Origin: Clostridia bacterium
GTDB taxonomy: Bacteria > Bacillota > Clostridia > Oscillospirales > Acutalibacteraceae
Reading direction: 5' to 3'
Length of the DNA stretch: 64,000 bases
NCBI GenBank assembly: GCA_017625095.1
Contig: JAGALQ010000024.1
Location: forward strand, 62,001 to 126,000
In this document: piece after piece, positions 6,687 to 16,512 of the stretch
Layout of the letters: every line of letters starts with the position of its first letter
Numbering within the stretch: the stretch's first letter is position 1
Translations under genes and position numbers: made by a program
The notes under the pieces: generated by a model
Told to the model about the DNA's origin: nothing
Databases searched by the model: none
The model's input: the letters and a program-made list of their open reading frames with translations, nothing else

Positions 6687-7109
6687 TTATGCTTTTTTTG
6701 CTTTTGTTTCACAGTAAAGGCAACGGTAAACTTGATTTTCTTTATCGGTGAGTTTGAAAATCTGCGGAAGCTCCTGCTCGGTTGAAGTAATACAACGAGG
6801 ATTCTTACACTTAATTACGTTTGTAAGCTTTTCGGGAAGCTCAAGATTTTTCTTTTCAACGATTACTTCGTCTTTAATAACGTTAACTGTTGCACCGGGA
6901 TCAACATAGCCGAGGATATCGGTATCGACAACAATATCATCATCAATTTTGATAATGTCCTTTTTGCCCATTTTTTTGCTTGATACGTTGGTTATAATTG
7001 CTACGCGGCAATCAAGGCTGTCAAGACCGAGGAGCTTATAGATTTTCATAGCATTACCGGCTGTGATATGATCGATAACAAGTCCGTTTTTGATAGAATC
7101 AATTTTCAT
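6687..7109 (-). CDS. pyrI: Aspartate carbamoyltransferase regulatory chain
   Basis: 140 residues, the usual size for PyrI. The N-terminal allosteric domain (MKIDSIKNGLVIDHITAGNA) binds nucleotide effectors. The C-terminal zinc domain keeps the four cysteines as CKNPRC near residue 103 and CLYC near 131. It binds the PyrB trimers and makes the enzyme sensitive to CTP/ATP in enzymes where this has been studied. It is the last gene of the operon, one base after pyrB, just before a terminator. Its presence means the pathway is likely controlled by feedback at the enzyme as well as at the leader. Confidence 0.95.
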   Translation of the reverse strand: MKIDSIKNGLVIDHITAGNAMKIYKLLGLDSLDCRVAIITNVSSKKMGKKDIIKIDDDIVVDTDILGYVDPGATVNVIKDEVIVEKKNLELPEKLTNVIKCKNPRCITSTEQELPQIFKLTDKENQVYRCLYCETKAKKA

Positions 7110-7110
7110 A

Positions 7111-8022
7111 TTATTCTACCTCCAGAAGCTTGAGGATAAGAGCCATACGGATAAACTTGCCGTTGAGAACCTGCTTGAAATAACAGGCTCTGGGGTCATC
7201 ATCAATAGCAACGCTTATCTCGTTAACTCTGGGCAGCGGATGCATTATCGAAAGGTCTGATTTTGCATTGTTCAGCCTTTCGGGATAAAGAATATAGCTA
7301 TCCTTAAGTCTGAGATAATCCTCCTCGTTGAAGAAACGCTCACGCTGAACACGAGTCATGTAAAGAATGTCAAGCTCAGGCATAACGCTGTCAAGATCAG
7401 TAGTCTGAACAAAATCGAGGTTATTTGCAGTGAGCACGTCCTTTACATATCCGGGAAGCTTAAGCTCTTCAGGAGAAACAAGAACAAATTTAATGTTCTT
7501 ATATCTTGAAAGAGCTGAAATCAGCGAATGAACGGTTCTGCCGAATTTAAGGTCTCCGCAGAAACCGACAGTCAGATTATCGAGTCTGCCCTTCTCTCTG
7601 TATATTGTGAGAAGATCGGTCAGAGTCTGTGTGGGATGGTTGTGACCGCCGTCACCTGCATTGATAACTGGAACAGATGCGTTCATTGCAGCAACAAGCG
7701 GTGCACCCTCTTTAGGATGACGCATTGCGATAATGTCAGCGTAACAAGAAGTTGTTTTGGCAGTGTCTGCTACGCTCTCGCCTTTTGCGGCAGAAGAGTT
7801 CTGCGCAGCTGAAAAACCGAGCACGTTACCGCCGAGTTCATACATAGCAGCCTCAAAACTGAGACGTGTTCTTGTTGAGGGCTCAAAGAAAAGTGTGGCA
7901 AGCTTTTTGCCCTTGCACTTTTCACTATATTTTGCAGGATTAGCTATGATATCGTTTGCCTTATCAATAAGCTGAGAAATTTCGTCTGTATTGAGGTCCA
8001 GAATATCAATCAAACTTCTCAT
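7111..8022 (-). CDS. pyrB: Aspartate carbamoyltransferase catalytic chain
   Basis: 303 residues. It joins carbamoyl phosphate and aspartate to carbamoyl aspartate, the committed step of pyrimidine synthesis. Visible active-site motifs are [13 protein letters not shown] (carbamoyl-phosphate loop, near residue 45), [12 protein letters not shown] near 121 and [10 protein letters not shown] near 258. The ATG overlaps the pyrE stop by four bases (ATGA), implying translational coupling. It pairs with the downstream PyrI. Confidence 0.97.
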
Positions 8023-8657
8023 TTTGTTTCACCGATCCAGCTCTCATCGGAGGGATTATTGCGGAATTTGATGAGTCTTGCAATATCTTCTGTTGCAATG
8101 TAGCCTTCTTCAGCTGCAACTTCAGCAATTGTGTCAAAATCAGTAAGGCTAATATTCTTAACTTCAGCTGCAGCAAGTCTGTCAAGACCCTTCTGCATAC
8201 CGTATGTGAAGATTGAAGCGATGCCGAGAACCTCTGCACCTGCCTCACGAAGTGCATCAACAACGTCAATTACGCTGCCGCCTGTTGAGATAAGATCCTC
8301 AACAACAACAACCTTCTGACCAGCTTCGAGCTTGCCCTCGATACGGTTCTGTCTGCCGTGATCCTTGCTTGAACCGCGAACATAACCCATAGGAAGACCC
8401 ATGATTTCAGCTGTGATAGCTGCGTGAGCAATACCTGCTGTTGATGTGCCCATAAGTACTTCAACATCGGGATAATTCTCTTTAATGATTGTTGCCAGGC
8501 CGTTCTCAACATCCTTACGTGCTTCAGGAGCTGTGAGGATAAGACGGTTGTCACAGTATACGGGGCTCTTGATTCCGCTTGCCCAGGTAAAGGGTTCTTC
8601 GGGGCGGAAGAAAACGGCCTTGATTTTGAGCAGATCTTTTGCAATAAGCTTCTTCAT
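8019..8657 (-). CDS. pyrE: Orotate phosphoribosyltransferase
   Basis: 212 residues. It converts orotate and PRPP to OMP. The PRPP-binding motif [17 protein letters not shown] lies at about residues 106-122, and the flexible catalytic loop with [16 protein letters not shown] is just before it. An AAGGAGATATAAAT ribosome binding site precedes the start. It sits between pyrF and pyrB in the operon. A PRPP synthetase-type gene elsewhere in the window (32084) would supply its cosubstrate. Confidence 0.96.
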
Positions 8658-8680: not shown

Positions 8681-9379
8681 TTAACCTACAAATTCAGCTA
8701 CACAGCGCTTATATGCTGCAACGGGATCTTCTGCTGCAGTAATCGGACGGCCGACAACAATGTAGTCACTGCCGATTTCTTTTGCCTGTGCAGGTGTCAT
8801 AACACGTGATTGGTCGCCGATATCGCCGTCAGCAAATCTGACACCGGGTGTAACTGTCATAAAGTTTTTGCCGCAAAGCTCGTGAACTTTGCCTGCCTCA
8901 AGCGGAGAACAGACAACACCGTCAAGACCTGCCTTTGCAGCATTCTGTGCGTAGTGCATAACAACTTTATCAGTTGGTTCGTTGATGAGCAGATCCTGCT
9001 CCATACGTTCCTGGCTTGTTGAAGTAAGCTGAGTAACAGCGATGAGAAGCGGTCTTGTACCGTCAGGACGTGTAAGACCCTCGAGTCCTGCCTCCATCAT
9101 TGAAATTGTGCCGCCTGCGTGGAGGTTAGTCATATCAACATCAAGACCTGAAAGAACAGCCATTGATTTTTTTACAGTGTTGGGGATATCGTGAAGCTTG
9201 AGATCAAGGAAAATTTTATGACCTCTTGCTTTGATTTCTTTAACAATTGAGGGACCTTCAGCATAGAAAAGCTCCATACCGATTTTTACAAAAGGTTTGC
9301 AGTCTGTGAACTTATCAAGAAAGTTCATAACAGCGTCTTTACTTGCAAAGTCACAAGCGATAATTACGTCCTTACCCAT
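8681..9379 (-). CDS. pyrF: Orotidine 5'-phosphate decarboxylase
   Basis: 232 residues of the short bacterial type. It decarboxylates OMP to UMP. The catalytic signature [14 protein letters not shown] near residue 59 holds the Asp-x-Lys-x-x-Asp charge network, and [16 protein letters not shown] near 173 is the phosphate region. The start codon overlaps the pyrD stop by one base (TAATG), with AGGAGG upstream. Confidence 0.96.
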
Positions 9380-10290
9380 TAGTGTGCTCCTCCTATTATT
9401 GATGTAAGATCATCTATTCCGTATTTTTTCATAACTGACGGTAAATCGTTGATTATATCGCGGCATGCGAAGGGGTCAACAAGATTCTGTGCACCAACCT
9501 GAACAGCTGTTGCACCAGCAAGCATCATCTCAATAACATCCTTTGCTGTTGCAATACCGCCCATACCGATAATCGGTATTTTAACTGCTTCATATACCTG
9601 ATAAACCATTCTGAGCGCAACCGGCTTGATTGCAGGACCTGAAAAGCCACCCATTTTGTTAGCTATAACAGGACGTCTTGTCTTGAGGTCAATTCTCATA
9701 CCGAGCATTGTGTTTATCATACTGATACCGTCAGCACCTGCAGCTTCACAAGCTTTTGCAATTGCAACGATATCTGTTACGTTTGGTGAAAGTTTTATAA
9801 ATAACGGTTTGTCAGTTACATTACGTACTGCTGCAGTAACCTCGGCAGCTGCCTCGGGTGATGTGCCGAAGCTCATACCGCCACCGTGTACGTTTGGACA
9901 TGATACATTGACTTCAAACCAACCTATCTGATCCTGTGAATCAAGCTGCTCAACAGTATAAGCATAATCTTCAACGGAAAAACCGCTGACGTTAGCCATT
10001 ACGGGTTTATTAAAGCATGCTTTAAGTTTGGGAAGCTCGTCCGAAATTACCTTTTCAACTCCGGGATTCTGAAGACCAACCGCATTGATCATACCTGAAT
10101 CACATTCAGCTATTCTTGGAGTCGGGTTTCCGAATCTCGGGTCTTTTGTAGTGCCCTTGAATGAAAATGTACCAAGGCAGTTTATATCATAGATTTCGGC
10201 AAACTCATAACCAAATCCGAATGTACCGCTTGCAGGGATAACAGGATTATCAATTTCAATACCGCAAAGATTGATTTTAGTATTTACCAT
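9379..10290 (-). CDS. pyrD: Dihydroorotate dehydrogenase, class 1B catalytic subunit
   Basis: 303-residue FMN-binding TIM barrel. [12 protein letters not shown] near residue 129 contains the catalytic Cys of class 1 enzymes (class 2 has Ser), and [19 protein letters not shown] near 244 is the FMN phosphate site. Directly upstream is pyrK, so the enzyme is the PyrDB/PyrK heterotetramer that uses NAD+ rather than fumarate or quinone. This suits an anaerobe. It overlaps pyrK by seven bases. Confidence 0.95.
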
Positions 10291-11015
10291 ATGATTTCCT
10301 CCCTCTCAAGCACGGGACCGTCCTTACAGATTCTCTTGTTACCGTATTTTGTTTTGCAGCTGCAACCCATACATGCTCCGAAACCGCAACCCATACGTTC
10401 TTCAAAGCTGTACTGACCGCTTGTAACAGCAGTAGATTCAATTGCTTTGAACATAGGCATAGGTCCGCAAGTGAAGAAATATGTATAGTTAATATCCTTC
10501 ATAGCATCGGTTACAAAGCCTTTTGTGCCGTAGCTACCGTCTACTGTTGTGACAATGACATTTGCACCGAGAGCTTTGAAATCATCCTCAAGGAAGATTT
10601 CATCAGCATTGTTGAAGCCGAGAATTACAGTGCAGGTTTTGCCGGCTTTAATAAGCTTTTTGCAAAGATTGTAAAGCGGAGGAATACCGACACCGCCGCC
10701 GATAAAAAGCGGCTTTTCACCGCACTTATCAAGGCTGTATCCGTTACCGAGGCCAACAAGCACATCGATCACTTCGCCTGCTTTCATTTCAGCCATCTGT
10801 TCTGTACCCTCGCCCACTACCTTGTAAACAAGCGTAATTGAAGTATCGTCATAATCGCAGATTGAAATAGGCCTGCGTAAGAATTTGCCTTCAAGTTTGA
10901 GATTGACAAACTGACCGGGCGCTGTAATAGCAGATGTGTCACCTTTAATAACCATTTTATAAACAGTTGAGGTCAACGCATCGTTTTTAATTATTTCATA
11001 TAACCCTTGAGTCAT
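10284..11015 (-). CDS. pyrK: Dihydroorotate dehydrogenase electron transfer subunit
   Basis: 243 residues with a ferredoxin reductase-like fold. RRPISICDY near residue 48 is the FAD-binding motif, GGGVGIPPLYNLCK near 105 is the NAD-binding segment, and the C-terminal CGFGACMGCSCK plus a later Cys (RICKDG) bind the 2Fe-2S cluster. It passes electrons from PyrD FMN to NAD+. AAGGTGATC is the ribosome binding site. Confidence 0.95.
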   Translation of the reverse strand: MTQGLYEIIKNDALTSTVYKMVIKGDTSAITAPGQFVNLKLEGKFLRRPISICDYDDTSITLVYKVVGEGTEQMAEMKAGEVIDVLVGLGNGYSLDKCGEKPLFIGGGVGIPPLYNLCKKLIKAGKTCTVILGFNNADEIFLEDDFKALGANVIVTTVDGSYGTKGFVTDAMKDINYTYFFTCGPMPMFKAIESTAVTSGQYSFEERMGCGFGACMGCSCKTKYGNKRICKDGPVLEREEIIW

Positions 11016-11029
11016 TATCTGATCACCTT

Positions 11030-14000
11030 TTAAGCATCAATTGTTGAAATGAAGAGTGTTGTTTCTTCAAGAACATCAAGAAGAACCTTTACAGTATCAA
11101 GAGAAGTGAACATTGTAACGTTGTTTTCAACAGCACACTGTCTGATTTCGTGACCGTCTGAAAGAGCACCGACAGAGCTTGTATCTCTTGTGTTGATGAC
11201 GTATGTTACGTAACCCTGACGGATTGCCTGAAGAATTTCATCGCTACCTTCGCTGATTTTTGGAAGTACGTGAGTTCTTATACCGTTATCCTTGAAGAAT
11301 TTTGCTGTGCCTTCAGTTGCCTGAATATTGAAGCCCATATTATAGAAGCGGCGGATAAGCGGAAGAGCCTCTTCCTTATCCTTATCGGATATTGTTGCGA
11401 ATACGGTGCCGTAATTCATAACGTTCATACCGCTTGCCTGAAGTGCTTTGTAGAGAGCTCTTGTCAGGCTGTTATCGTAACCGATAGCTTCACCTGTTGA
11501 CTTCATTTCGGGTGAAAGATAAGCGTCAAGACCTCTGAGCTTTGAGAATGAGAATGCGGGAGCCTTGACATACCAGCGGTTCTTTCTGGGAGCTACTGTA
11601 TAATCAATTCCCTGATCTTTAAGTGACTTACCGAGCATACAGAGAGTTGCAATATCTGCAAGGCTGTAGCCTGTTGATTTTGAAAGGAACGGAACTGTTC
11701 TTGATGATCTGGGATTAACCTCAATGATAAAGACGTTATCATCCTTATCTACAATGAACTGAATATTAAACAGACCAACAATGCCGATACCGAGACCAAG
11801 CTTCTTTGTGTAATCGATAATTGTTTCCTGAACCTTTTCAGATATGCTGAATGTCGGATAAACACTGATTGAGTCACCCGAATGGATACCTGTACGTTCA
11901 ACGAGTTCCATAATACCGGGAACGAATACGTCTGTACCGTCGCAGATTGCGTCAACCTCAACCTCTTTACCGACAATATATTTGTCTACAAGAACAGGCT
12001 TGTCCTCGTCAATTTCAACTGCTGTGTTAAGGTATCTGCGAAGCTGAGCTTCATCAGCAACAATCTCCATAGCACGACCACCGAGAACGAATGAGGGACG
12101 AACAAGTACGGGATATCCGATTCTTGCAGCAGCTGCAACACCGTCTTCGATTTTTGTAACAGCCTGTCCTTCGGGCTGGGGAATGTTGAGAGACTGAAGA
12201 ACCTTCTGGAATGAATCACGGTTTTCTGCACGCTCAATAGCATCGCAGTCTGTACCGATAATCTTTACACCTCTGTCACGAAGACCTTCGGAAAGGTTAA
12301 TTGCTGTCTGACCGCCGAGAGAAGCAACGACACCTTCAGGCTTTTCGAGGTGGATAATATTCATTACGTCTTCAACACAGAGAGGCTCAAAATAGAGCTT
12401 GTCTGAGCATGTATAGTCTGTTGAAACAGTTTCGGGGTTGTTGTTGATTATGATAGCTTCATAACCGCTCTTTTTGATTGTTGTAACAGCGTGAACAGTT
12501 GAATAGTCAAACTCAACACCCTGACCGATACGAATAGGACCTGAACCGAGAACAACAATTTTCTTCTTGTCGGAAACAATTGATTCATTCTCTGATTCAT
12601 AAGTTGAATAGAGATAAGGAATGTATCCGTCAAACTCAGCTGCACAAGTGTCGATCATTTTGTATACGGGGAACATATCGTTTTCTACACGCATTTCATA
12701 AACTTCTTTGCCTGTAATACCCCAGAGCTGAGCGATAAAATCATCAGAGAAGCCCATTTTCTTGGCTTTATAAAGAGTGGCAACGTCACCTTTGTTAGCC
12801 TTAACTTCATACTCCATCATAACGATGTTCTTGATCTTCTCGATGAAGAGCATATCAATTTTGGTTGCATGGTAAATCATACCCATATCTGTGCCTCTGC
12901 TGATAAGCTCAGCAATTGCATAGAATCGGTCATCAGTACCGTTTACAATATATTTGAGAAGCTCTTCTTCAGTGTAACTGTCAAACTTCTTCATATAAAG
13001 GTGATTTACACCAATTTCAAGTGAACGTGTTGCTTTAAGGAGACTCTCCTCAATTGTTCTGCCGATGCTCATTACTTCACCGGTAGCTTTCATCTGAGTT
13101 GAAAGTGTGTTATTTGCCGTTGAAAATTTATCAAACGGGAATCTGGGCATTTTTGTAACAACATAGTCGATTGTAGGCTCAAATGCCGCAGGAGTATTTG
13201 CGATTCTGATTTCATCAAGTGTCATACCCATTGCGATTTTTGCGGTTACGCGAGCAATCGGATAGCCGCTTGCCTTAGAAGCAAGTGCAGATGAACGTGA
13301 AACTCTGGGATTAACTTCGATGAGGTAGTATGTGAATGAAAGCGGATCAAGCGCAAACTGCACGTTACAGCCGCCTTCAATTTTAAGTGCGCGGATAATT
13401 TTGAGAGCACTGTCACGAAGCATAGCGTTCTCTTTTGCGGTAAGAGTCTGTGTGGGGCAGACAACAACTGAGTCGCCTGTATGGATACCTACAGGGTCAA
13501 CATTTTCCATATTGCAGATTGCGATTGCTGTGTCGTTAGCATCACGCATAACTTCGTATTCGATTTCTTTATAGCCCTTTATGCTCTTTTCAACAAGAAC
13601 CTGATGTACGGGAGAAAGTGCAAGTGCGTTCTTAAGAATTTCACGGCATTCAGCTTCATTGTCTGCGAAACCGCCGCCTGTTCCACCGAGAGTGAATGCG
13701 GGACGAAGAACAACGGGATAGCCGATTTCTTTAGCTGCGGAAAGACCCTCATCCATTGTGTTTGCAATAAGAGAAGGAAGAACGGGTTCACCGAGACTCT
13801 CGCAGAGCTCTTTGAAAAGCTCTCTGTCTTCAGCCATCTCAATACTCTTGCTGCTTGTGCCGAGAAGTTCAACACCGCACTCCTTAAGAATGCCCTTCTT
13901 CTCAAGCTGCATAGCGAGGTTAAGACCTGTCTGACCGCCGATACCGGGAATGATTGCATCGGGACGCTCAAAGCGGATGACCTTAGCAACATACTCAAGA

Positions 14001-14209
14001 GTAAGAGGCTCCATATATACTTTATCGGCGATTGTTGTATCAGTCATTATAGTTGCGGGGTTTGAGTTGCAGAGAACAACCTCATAACCCTCTTCCTTAA
14101 GAGCAAGACAAGCCTGTGTGCCGGCGTAGTCAAATTCGGCTGCCTGACCGATAACAATAGGTCCTGAACCGATAACAAGTACCTTTTTAATATCTGTTCT
14201 CTTTGCCAT
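11030..14209 (-). CDS. carB: Carbamoyl-phosphate synthase large subunit
   Basis: 1059 residues, full length. Two homologous halves each carry an ATP-grasp domain (GGTGGG near residue 173 in the first; [13 protein letters not shown] in the second), starting with [21 protein letters not shown] and [18 protein letters not shown]. The C-terminal MGS-like allosteric domain ([18 protein letters not shown] onward) is present. It makes carbamoyl phosphate from bicarbonate, ammonia and 2 ATP. Ammonia normally comes from CarA; here CarA lacks the glutaminase triad (see carA), so CarB is probably fed by free ammonia. It starts two bases after the carA stop. Confidence 0.96.
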
Positions 14210-14210
14210 C

Positions 14211-15293
14211 TTACTTGTCCCCCTTCATAAGGTTAATGAATCTTTCATAGAATGTTGAGAACTCGCTGGGAAGATACTGTACGCCGTAGACGTTATCTTT
14301 TTCACAGCTGATACCTTCAACAGTTTTATCAAAAATATTAAGGTGTGTAATTTTAAGTTCTGTACCTTCGATAGAATCTGCATCAACGGCATAACCGTGA
14401 TTCTGCAGATGGTTGCGAAGTGTGTTGTTGATGAGTGATCTGACCGAATGATTGCAGCCTCTGTGACCGAACTTGAGCTTGTATGTTTTGGCGCCGTATG
14501 CAAGACCGATAATTTCGTGACCGAGACCGACACCGATAATCGGGCACTTACCTTTAAGTGTTTTGACAAGATCGATTACAGTCGGCACATCCTCGGGATT
14601 ACCGGGACCGTCGGAGATATAGATTCCGTCAGGCTTCATCTTCATAACTTCTTCGGCAGTTGTGTCGTAAGGAACAACTGTTATGTTACATCCTCTTGAG
14701 TTGAGTGTGCGGATAAGGCTGAGCTTGATACCGCAGTCGATTGCTACAACGTTGTATTTCATATTGGGAGTTCTTGAGTACCAACGCTTTTTGCAGCTTA
14801 CCTTTGAAACAGCATCTGTAGGAATCTGAGTTGATGCAAGAATCTCAAGTGCTTTCTCTTTAGGTGTTTCAATTGAGGTGAAAAGCACCTTATAAGTACC
14901 GTTATCACGGATTTTTCTTGTAAGCTCACGTGTATCAAGACCGCTGATACCGGGGATTTTGTAATCCTCCATTACTTCTGCAAGAGTTTTTGTTGCGCGG
15001 AAGTTTGAAGGAACATCGTTGTATTCTCTGACAACAAGACCGCCGAGAGTTGGCACCTTTGTCTCAAAATCGTCGTCTGCCGTACCGCAGTTACCAATAA
15101 GCGGATAAGTCATAACAACTGCCTGATATGTGTATGTCGGGTCAGAAATGATCTCCTGATAACCGAGCATAGCTGTGTTGAACACGAGCTCGCATACTCT
15201 GTCACAGTCGTAACCGAAACCGTAGCCGAAATACTCACTGCCGTCTTCAAGCACGATTTTTTTGTTGTAGTTCATTATTCTTTGCATATCCAT
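14211..15293 (-). CDS. carA: Carbamoyl-phosphate synthase small subunit with a degenerate glutaminase site
   Basis: 360 residues, full-length CarA. The N-terminal domain is well kept ([37 protein letters not shown]), and a class I amidotransferase fold follows ([25 protein letters not shown]). However, the nucleophile elbow GxCLGHQ reads GVGLGHE, with Gly at residue 256 in place of the catalytic Cys. The canonical YHPE reads YLPS, so the His (residue 341) and Glu (343) are lost too. All three triad residues are therefore missing, while the frame and flanking structure are intact. From family knowledge it should be unable to hydrolyse glutamine and may act as a structural or allosteric partner, as in ammonia-dependent CPS1. 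Start: GGAGGTAAAGCAGT before the ATG; the gene overlaps pyrC by 19 bases. Confidence 0.93.
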
Positions 15294-16495
15294 ACTGCTT
15301 TACCTCCACATACTGTAAGTTCACACTTTCCGTACACAAGTTCATTTTCAAACGGCGTGCTTCTGCCCTTTGATAAGAATTCGTCCGGATCTATTCTATA
15401 AGCCTTTTCAAGGTCATATACACAATAATCTTCAGTTTCGGGTAAACCGAAGCGTTTTCTGGGGTTGACAGACATAAGTTCAATCAGTTTTTCAAGGGAT
15501 ATAATTCCTTCTTTAACAAGCTTAGTATAAAGAATCGGGAATGCTGTTTCAATGCCTACAATTCCCATCATACTGCCTGCAAGTCCTTTGGATTTTTCTT
15601 CTGAGCTGTGCGGAGCATGGTCTGTGGCAATCATATCAATTGTGCCGTCTTTGATGCCTTCGATAAGTGCGAGTCTGTCCTCTTCACTGCGTATAGGCGG
15701 ATTCATCTTAAATCTGCCCTCATCCTTTAGCATACTGTCATTCATTACAAGGTAATGAGGACCTGTTTCGCAGGTTACGTCGACACCTCGCGCTTTAGCT
15801 TCGCGAATAATCTGTACACTTTCTTTGGTGGAGATATGACAGACATGATATTTACAACCGATTTCTTCGACGAGTTTCAGGTCACGCGCAATAGGTTTCC
15901 ATTCGCTTTCGCTGCAGATGCCTTTGTGTCCGTTTGCCTTTGCGTATTCACCGTCGTGGATATATCCGCCGAAAAGAAGCGAATTATCTTCGCAGTGAGC
16001 AACAATGATCTTGTCAAGCTCTTTGGCTTTAATCATTGCATCACGCATCATATCTTCATTCTGTACTCCCCTGCCGTCATCAGAGAAACCGGAACAGATA
16101 GGAGCAAGACCCTCGAAATCCGAAAGTACTTCACCGTTTTGTCCGACTGTTATTGACGCATAGGGATGAACGTTTATGACTGCATCGCGTTCAATAATAT
16201 CGCGCTGAATCATCATATTCTCAACACTGTCAGGTACAGGCTTCAGATTAGGCATTGAGAAAACATCGGTGTATCCGCCTCTTGCACAAGCTGCTGTACC
16301 GGTTGCGATGGTTTCCTTATAAAAAAAACCCGGCTCTCTAAGATGTACGTGTACATCACAAAAAGCGGGAAAAATAAAACAATTATTAAAAGTAAAATCA
16401 ACGGCGTCACTGCCCTGAATTGTATCAACAGGGAAGGAGGTTTTAACGAATGAACCGTTATCATATTTGAAGCAATTTTCAAAATATGCCTTCAT
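15275..16495 (-). CDS. pyrC: Dihydroorotase
   Basis: 406 residues, class I dihydroorotase, which cyclises carbamoyl aspartate to dihydroorotate. Zinc ligands appear in DVHVHLREPG (near residue 48), and later in VAHCEDN (near 165), YHVCHIST (near 215) and ATDHAPHS (near 292). The open frame extends to 16564, but that extension runs through the leader terminator and the AAAGGAG ribosome binding site. The real start is ATG at 16495. It is the first gene of the nine-gene pyr operon. Confidence 0.95.
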   Translation of the reverse strand: MKAYFENCFKYDNGSFVKTSFPVDTIQGSDAVDFTFNNCFIFPAFCDVHVHLREPGFFYKETIATGTAACARGGYTDVFSMPNLKPVPDSVENMMIQRDIIERDAVINVHPYASITVGQNGEVLSDFEGLAPICSGFSDDGRGVQNEDMMRDAMIKAKELDKIIVAHCEDNSLLFGGYIHDGEYAKANGHKGICSESEWKPIARDLKLVEEIGCKYHVCHISTKESVQIIREAKARGVDVTCETGPHYLVMNDSMLKDEGRFKMNPPIRSEEDRLALIEGIKDGTIDMIATDHAPHSSEEKSKGLAGSMMGIVGIETAFPILYTKLVKEGIISLEKLIELMSVNPRKRFGLPETEDYCVYDLEKAYRIDPDEFLSKGRSTPFENELVYGKCELTVCGGKAVWICKE

Positions 16496-16512
16496 ACTTA
16501 ACTCCTTTCTCG

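Follow-up and report, generated by a model that had tools for sequence, protein, structure and literature searches.

Results

Organization of the pyr operon

The window, by which we mean the whole stretch of 64,000 nucleotides analysed here, carries the entire UMP route in a single operon, including both aspartate carbamoyltransferase subunits (Table 1). The genes are arranged in the order pyrC-carA-carB-pyrK-pyrD-pyrF-pyrE-pyrB-pyrI, all on the minus strand and with gaps of -19 to +23 bases, and no non-pyr genes were found between pyrC and pyrI. The operon is larger than an earlier, sequence-only reading of this DNA had stated. A single base separates carA from carB, and the two genes stand in the same order in five other genomes of the genus, in G010 and in G066. 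The longer arrangement pyrC-carA-carB-pyrK-pyrD-pyrF is common to the window, G066 and the five genus genomes; the G010 contig breaks off within pyrD. Another contig (C22) of the window genome (G000) encodes a further carbamoyltransferase, whose PF00185 score is higher.

Table 1. Genes of the pyr operon and altered positions of CarA in the window
Feature	Position	Strand	Basis or remark
pyrI, aspartate carbamoyltransferase regulatory subunit	6687..7109	-	
pyrB, aspartate carbamoyltransferase catalytic subunit (consumes carbamoyl phosphate)	7111..8022	-	TIGR00670, 344 bits
pyrE, orotate phosphoribosyltransferase	8019..8657	-	
pyrF, orotidine-5'-phosphate decarboxylase	8681..9379	-	
pyrD, dihydroorotate dehydrogenase	9379..10290	-	
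pyrK, electron transfer subunit of dihydroorotate dehydrogenase	10284..11015	-	
carB, CPS large subunit, 1059 aa, complete	11030..14209	-	TIGR01369, 1431 bits; catalytic positions present
carA, CPS small subunit, 360 aa, triad-less (pseudo-glutaminase)	14211..15293	-	TIGR01368, Pfam domains, omega
Leu341-Ser343 stretch; loop APGPQD of live relatives absent right after Leu341 or in the next residues	14262..14273	-	
Ser343 (AGC), at E. coli Glu355	14265..14267	-	family alignments, codon reading
Leu341 (CTT), at E. coli His353	14271..14273	-	family alignments, codon reading
Cys280 in GHRGCNH	14454..14456	-	family alignments, codon reading
Glu260, at E. coli Gln273 (GHQ)	14514..14516	-	E. coli alignment, codon reading
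Gly256 (GGT), at E. coli nucleophile Cys269	14526..14528	-	alignments, codon reading
pyrC, dihydroorotase	15275..16504	-	19-base overlap with carA as drawn

The window CarA lacks the glutaminase triad

The carA frame runs for 360 codons on the minus strand without a frameshift, and its product contains both Pfam domains of the family (CPSase_sm_chain and GATase) and scores 377 bits against TIGR01368, for which the cut-off is 307. Glu355 is the third triad residue of E. coli CarA and Gln273 a glutamine-binding residue, and the loop missing after the HPE motif adjoins the tunnel exit in the E. coli enzyme. Cys269 and His353 are named as catalytic residues of E. coli CarA in passages of PMC6245113. 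In place of the Cys, His and Glu expected of a glutamine-hydrolysing CarA, the window protein has Gly256, Leu341 and Ser343. The pairwise alignment with E. coli CarA stops at the last triad residues, and Leu341 and Ser343 were placed via family alignments. Alignments and codons thus bore out the claim of the sequence-only reading that all three triad residues are gone. Sequencing or assembly error was ruled out as an explanation by like changes in seven genomes of the genus. The change is not a chance one, because the motif GVGLGHE is common to six genus genomes at a median dS of 1.36, invariant despite silent changes, and because the nucleophile Cys is likewise missing from 32 of 157 CarA of the family.

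Triad-less CarA proteins were found in 7 of 11 genus genomes (G000, G001, G002, G003, G005, G006 and G010), and in the first six of these the triad-less protein is the sole copy found. A search of the window genome, which is 87% complete, returned one CarA match and no second copy; the other five are 90–99% complete. The second carA about which the sequence-only reading had been unable to decide was therefore not found in the window genome or in five sister genomes, and G010 does have one, of canonical type. In three further members (G004, G008 and G009) the CarA is a distant one that has the triad, and G007 (86% complete) gave no match. Two of the triad-less genus proteins are identical to CarA of MAG contigs JAFQEL010000026.1 (goat caecum) and JAFXCH010000003.1 (sheep rectum).

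All seven triad-less genus members retain the QNH and GHRG motifs of the glutamine pocket, and six of the seven have lost the loop that reads APGPQD in live relatives. Cys280 is present in all seven and in none of the remaining 150 CarA; in the 25 cysteine-less CarA from outside this set, the position is occupied by S, G, A, T, E, V or N.

In G010 the triad-less CarA-CarB pair lies in the pyr operon and the canonical CarA-CarB on another contig (L254, L257). Both CarA types are present in this genome, and therefore the two could be compared in one cell.

carA is maintained by selection and CarB is intact

Selection was measured by the Nei-Gojobori method on the 15 pairs formed by six genus genomes. 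Median omega was 0.074 for carA and 0.049 for carB, beside 0.077 for pyrC, 0.082 for pyrK, 0.042 for pyrD and 0.044 for pyrF, and the GATase-like half of CarA was as constrained as the N-terminal half (median dN 0.090 vs 0.122). carA is under strong purifying selection and is maintained in the window genus. The suggestion that the changes might be clade-wide and selectively maintained thus held for 7 of 11 genus genomes (omega 0.07), and so did the earlier statement that the gene has an intact frame and is not decaying, the frame being unbroken and purifying selection being seen among six genus genomes.

For CarB we followed E. coli positions 129, 169, 215, 217, 232, 243, 299, 301 and 303, which we take to be those that matter. 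In 24 CarB rows lying beside a cysteine-less CarA, two of them second records of the same contigs, E215, E217, C232, H243, R129, R169 and R303 (E. coli numbering) were unchanged in every row, and positions 299 and 301 were kept in 23 of the 24. The earlier description of CarB as complete in the same operon agrees with its length and with the presence of the catalytic positions in the window protein. No adaptation of CarB to a dead CarA is claimed: 11 columns distinguish CarB beside live CarA from CarB beside dead CarA, but most of the live rows, unlike many of the dead ones, come from near the window.

Loss of the CarA cysteine recurs across the family

We examined an even draw of 200 genomes of the family, of which 136 had a CarA at E ≤ 1e-45; together with the genus search this gave 157 CarA that were read, from 140 genomes. 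A CarA without the nucleophile Cys is called dead here, and one with it live or Cys-type, whatever the rest of the site; a sole CarA is sole in assemblies that are 77–99% complete. Five of the 157, among them one truncated by the end of its contig, have the Cys but do not match [YF]HPE, and were counted as live. The CarA of G195, second copies in G146 and G111, weak fragments in G035, G068 and G098 and a second one in G088 stand outside the 157. A second copy in G012 (L349) and a fragment in G077 are also without Cys and are in neither the 157 nor the tree, and a CarA fragment in G064 ends before the active site.

The Cys was missing in 32 of the 157 CarA (28 Gly, 4 Ser), in 31 of the 140 genomes. 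All three triad residues were gone in 21 of the 32, while His, Glu or both remained in 11 (His in 5, Glu in 8). In G142 and G190 only the Cys was lost, the motif of G190 reading HHPE.

A CarA tree of 172 rows, built after removal of the active-site columns, requires a minimum of 15 switches between presence and absence of the Cys, and 16 clades lack the Cys under midpoint rooting, counts from which parsimony cannot by itself separate loss from gain. The figure of 15–16 losses is approximate because several branches under dead rows are weakly supported. The window genus, MAG contig L278 and G066 form one clade (SH-aLRT 95), and the QNH motif of the G066 protein is altered to QSQ. A second group is an old clade of cysteine-less CarA paralogues (SH-aLRT 100), seven of whose eight members share their genome with a Cys-type copy. 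Several cysteine-less CarA that fall outside the window clade have long branches, a possible sign of relaxed constraint there. Among the 80 named GTDB loci nearest the window CarA, four are without Cys: L269 (from G001), L270 (from G005), L278 and L336.

carB adjoins carA in all 14 cysteine-less loci examined with flanks. The gene upstream, scanned in 10 of these loci, was an OTC-like carbamoyltransferase in five, orotidine decarboxylase in one, NAD synthase in one and others in three; because of these neighbours, we conclude that Cys loss touches CPS in arginine-like as well as pyrimidine settings. The sequence-only reading had proposed an operon built around an altered CPS; the pyrimidine operon stands, whereas the impression of a single odd case does not, since the loss is recurrent in the family and is also found beside an OTC-like carbamoyltransferase.

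The NAD synthase of G202 (L155:2413-3147) is directly upstream of a cysteine-less carA and is of single-domain size, at 244 aa. Single-domain NAD synthase is described as a form known to use ammonia in passages of PMC3376133.

Sixty-four of the 200 family genomes had no CarA at E ≤ 1e-45, including the near-complete G026 (99%), G032 (99%) and G067 (98%). Auxotrophy for pyrimidines or arginine may be widespread in the family.

A short GMP synthetase accompanies the cysteine-less CarA

The GuaA of the window genome is a stand-alone ATPPase of 327 aa (open frame 335 aa) without a GATase domain. Neither a fused nor a separate GATase, as expected of a glutamine-hydrolysing GMP synthetase, was found for it in G000, where PF00117 yields CarA and HisH only (87% complete). 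PF00117 members number two in G000, G001, G002, G005, G006 and G066 and three in G003, and the member besides CarA is HisH in G000, G001, G002, G006 and G066. HisH reads GICLG and FHPE in the loci of G000, G001, G002, G006, G007 and G066, and a wholesale loss of class I amidotransferase activity was ruled out by these live motifs in six loci.

We then compared GuaA with CarA in 75 genomes, with GuaA classed from open-frame length and with G172 (434 aa) and G105 (225 aa, a fragment) scored as short. Among the 19 genomes whose sole CarA is dead, GuaA was short-only in 16, full in one (G140) and not found in two (G006, G190); G016, which has two dead CarA copies, had a full GuaA. Where a dead CarA stands beside a live one (11 genomes), GuaA was full in 10 and not found in one. 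The 44 genomes with live CarA only, which we chose among those at least 95% complete rather than drawing them at random and which include G012, later found to have a live and a dead copy, had a full GuaA in 38 cases, none in six and a short-only one in no case.

Among GuaA-bearing genomes, a short-only GuaA was thus present in 16 of 18 without a Cys-type CarA vs 0 of 48 with one (Fisher p 1.8e-13), or in 16 of 17 when G016 was left out (p 2.6e-14). With kinship allowed for, and again without G016, six independent pairs could be taken from the CarA tree, of which 5.8 on average were concordant and none was ever opposite (sign test, median p 0.031, range to 0.0625). The counter-cases to the co-loss, all without Cys-type CarA, are G140 and G016, with full GuaA, and G006 and G190, with no GuaA. 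The window short GuaA is 75–98% identical to 11 other short forms, 85% to that of G010 and 53–55% to four full ones. Sequence comparison sets the short GuaA apart as an old lineage of its own.

Class I amidotransferases numbered a median of 2 per genome in 15 of the 19 genomes with a dead sole CarA vs 5 in the 44 live-only genomes. The joint loss of the CarA Cys and the GuaA GATase could also reflect, in part, a broader shedding of amidotransferase genes by auxotrophic lineages.

Glutamine synthetase (PF00120) was found in 18 of the 19 genomes with a dead sole CarA, the window genome included, and not in G090; in G031, G116 and G202 the only match is weak and lies in a frame some 700 aa long or longer. 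Glutamine starvation was ruled out as a general cause by this presence in 18 of 19. Because the window genome keeps both glutamine synthetase and a live HisH, glutamine is not absent there and the proposed nitrogen-donor switch would be a selective one.

One type of glutamine synthetase, whose PF00120 match is longer (1095 bases, frame 475–514 aa; e.g. G000:C16:23619-24713), is present in 12 of the 19 dead-sole genomes and, among the other 56 genomes, in G136 only. Of 14 genomes searched for CTP synthase (PF06418), nine gave no match (G000, G001, G002, G003, G005, G006, G007, G066 and G100), and six of these nine are 96–99% complete.

Alternative explanations

CarA might be a regulator or docking subunit that binds glutamine or another ligand uncleaved and signals to CarB, or that holds a separate ammonia-releasing enzyme. 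This would be compatible with ammonia use by CarB, and the QNH and GHRG pocket kept in seven genus members and the purifying selection on the GATase-like half are what it would lead one to expect. We nevertheless regard it as unlikely: Glu260 in place of Gln273 should weaken glutamine binding, only pyr genes lie between pyrC and pyrI, and the pocket motif of G066 has gone from QNH to QSQ.

What selected for the change might also have been evasion of glutamine antagonists, compounds that alkylate the cysteine of amidotransferases, and not plentiful ammonia, with the enzyme still using ammonia. CPS and GMPS are targets of glutamine antagonists, and it is from both of these that the glutaminase is gone; all six HisH loci that were read, five of the genus and that of G066, however keep the cysteine, so that such an origin seems very improbable.

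Scarcely credible to us is a decaying gene, with uracil scavenged or carbamoyl phosphate supplied by carbamate kinase and CarAB idle. A median omega of 0.07 for carA and 0.05 for carB, a pyrC-to-pyrF order that is constant in the window, five genus genomes and G066, and intact CarB catalytic positions all speak against it, although, of 14 genomes checked, G000 and eight others yielded no CTP synthase, and genomes whose sole CarA is cysteine-less have fewer class I amidotransferases (median 2, 15 genomes, vs 5, 44 genomes).

We give almost no weight to a glutaminase persisting through a relocated nucleophile, Cys280 of GHRGCNH, which is found in the seven triad-less genus CarA and in 0 of 150 others, since those seven have lost the triad His and Glu too, the position holds S, G, A, T, E, V or N in the remaining 25 cysteine-less CarA, and such a nucleophile is not known from any class I amidotransferase.

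Discussion

We consider it likely that the window CarAB is an ammonia-dependent CPS in which CarA has been kept as a structural subunit, and that it is one instance of a move from glutamine to ammonia that recurred in the family. The genomic evidence thus supports the prediction of the sequence-only reading that this CPS uses free ammonia. CarA, having lost Cys, His and Glu, would no longer hydrolyse glutamine and would serve as a full-length structural subunit of CarB, a role with which the selection and the operon structure are consistent. CarB would make carbamoyl phosphate from the cell's free ammonia, bicarbonate and two ATP, and the intact CarB and complete UMP operon suggest that this product would pass to PyrB of the same operon. 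Loss of the loop after HPE might open an ammonia port at the subunit interface, which we offer as a guess.

Passages of PMC4655335 describe E. coli CPS variants whose glutamine tunnel is blocked or perforated and which show normal activity with external ammonia, and passages of PMC10526850 report that GMP synthetases of the two-subunit kind have an ATPPase subunit able to use external ammonia in vitro. Against this, passages of PMC6245113, a 2018 review, describe the ammonia requirement of E. coli CPS as very high and likely irrelevant in physiological terms, and take glutamine to be the nitrogen donor for every bacterial CPS. Among open-licence PMC papers we found no report of a bacterial triad-less CarA or of an ammonia-only CPS.

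By descent the window CPS is a bacterial CarAB. It has the same subunit make-up, domains and CarB catalytic positions as E. coli CarAB (CPS II), but E. coli CarA has the catalytic triad and the window CarA does not. The nearest engineered match is the E. coli Cys269 laboratory mutants, which, as described by Rubino et al. in 1986, reportedly keep ammonia-dependent synthesis.

In its predicted working, the window enzyme is most like vertebrate CPS I. Human CPS1 and frog CPS I retain a glutamine-inactive, glutaminase-like part and use free ammonia, as passages of PMC4655335 state; the same is predicted of the window enzyme. Both have a glutaminase-like part without a working triad, whereas CPS I is one fused chain, mitochondrial, dependent on N-acetylglutamate and devoted to urea synthesis, and the window CPS has separate subunits, stands in a pyrimidine operon and has lost the whole triad, with the loop deleted in six genomes as well. 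Passages of PMC4655335 and PMC7657897 report that in human CPS1 Ser replaces Cys and other sites may be altered, and that bullfrog CPS I keeps the triad. The likeness to CPS1 drawn in the sequence-only reading is therefore less close than it was put there. We infer an independent origin for CPS I and the window type.

The window genome GuaA resembles the ATPPase of archaeal two-subunit GMP synthetase in standing alone, but the archaeal enzyme has a partner GATase subunit and none was found in G000 (PF00117, 87% complete). The NAD synthetase family, as portrayed in passages of PMC3376133, is likewise a mosaic of glutamine and ammonia forms, one of them lost in a lineage-specific way; there the ammonia form is proposed to be ancestral, whereas here the glutaminase residues appear to have been lost secondarily and the subunit was kept.

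Repeated loss of the Cys in relatives suggests a switch to free ammonia for nucleotide nitrogen. The glutaminase-bearing GMP synthetase, whose absence is associated with that of the CarA Cys, would have been replaced by the old stand-alone form, itself predicted to use ammonia, and the shift from glutamine to ammonia for nucleotide synthesis would have recurred in this gut Clostridia family. With rather less assurance than for the window enzyme, we think it probable that the family as a whole switched nucleotide synthesis to free ammonia many times, CarA becoming a glutaminase-less scaffold and GMP synthetase being exchanged for an ammonia-only form, that loss of the loop in the window lineage may open a direct ammonia port, and that bacterial CPS would not be glutamine-dependent by rule.

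Because the defining residues were tested and are absent, the window CPS should not be filed as glutamine-hydrolysing; for such genes this would be a wrong name, although TIGR01368 accepts the window CarA. They would be natural replicas of the vertebrate change from CPS III to CPS I, in separable and assayable subunits. If the proposal is true, whole bacterial lineages build their nucleotides from free ammonia, against the view that glutamine serves all, and this would have consequences for how nitrogen moves through the guts of herbivores and for sensitivity to glutamine antagonists.
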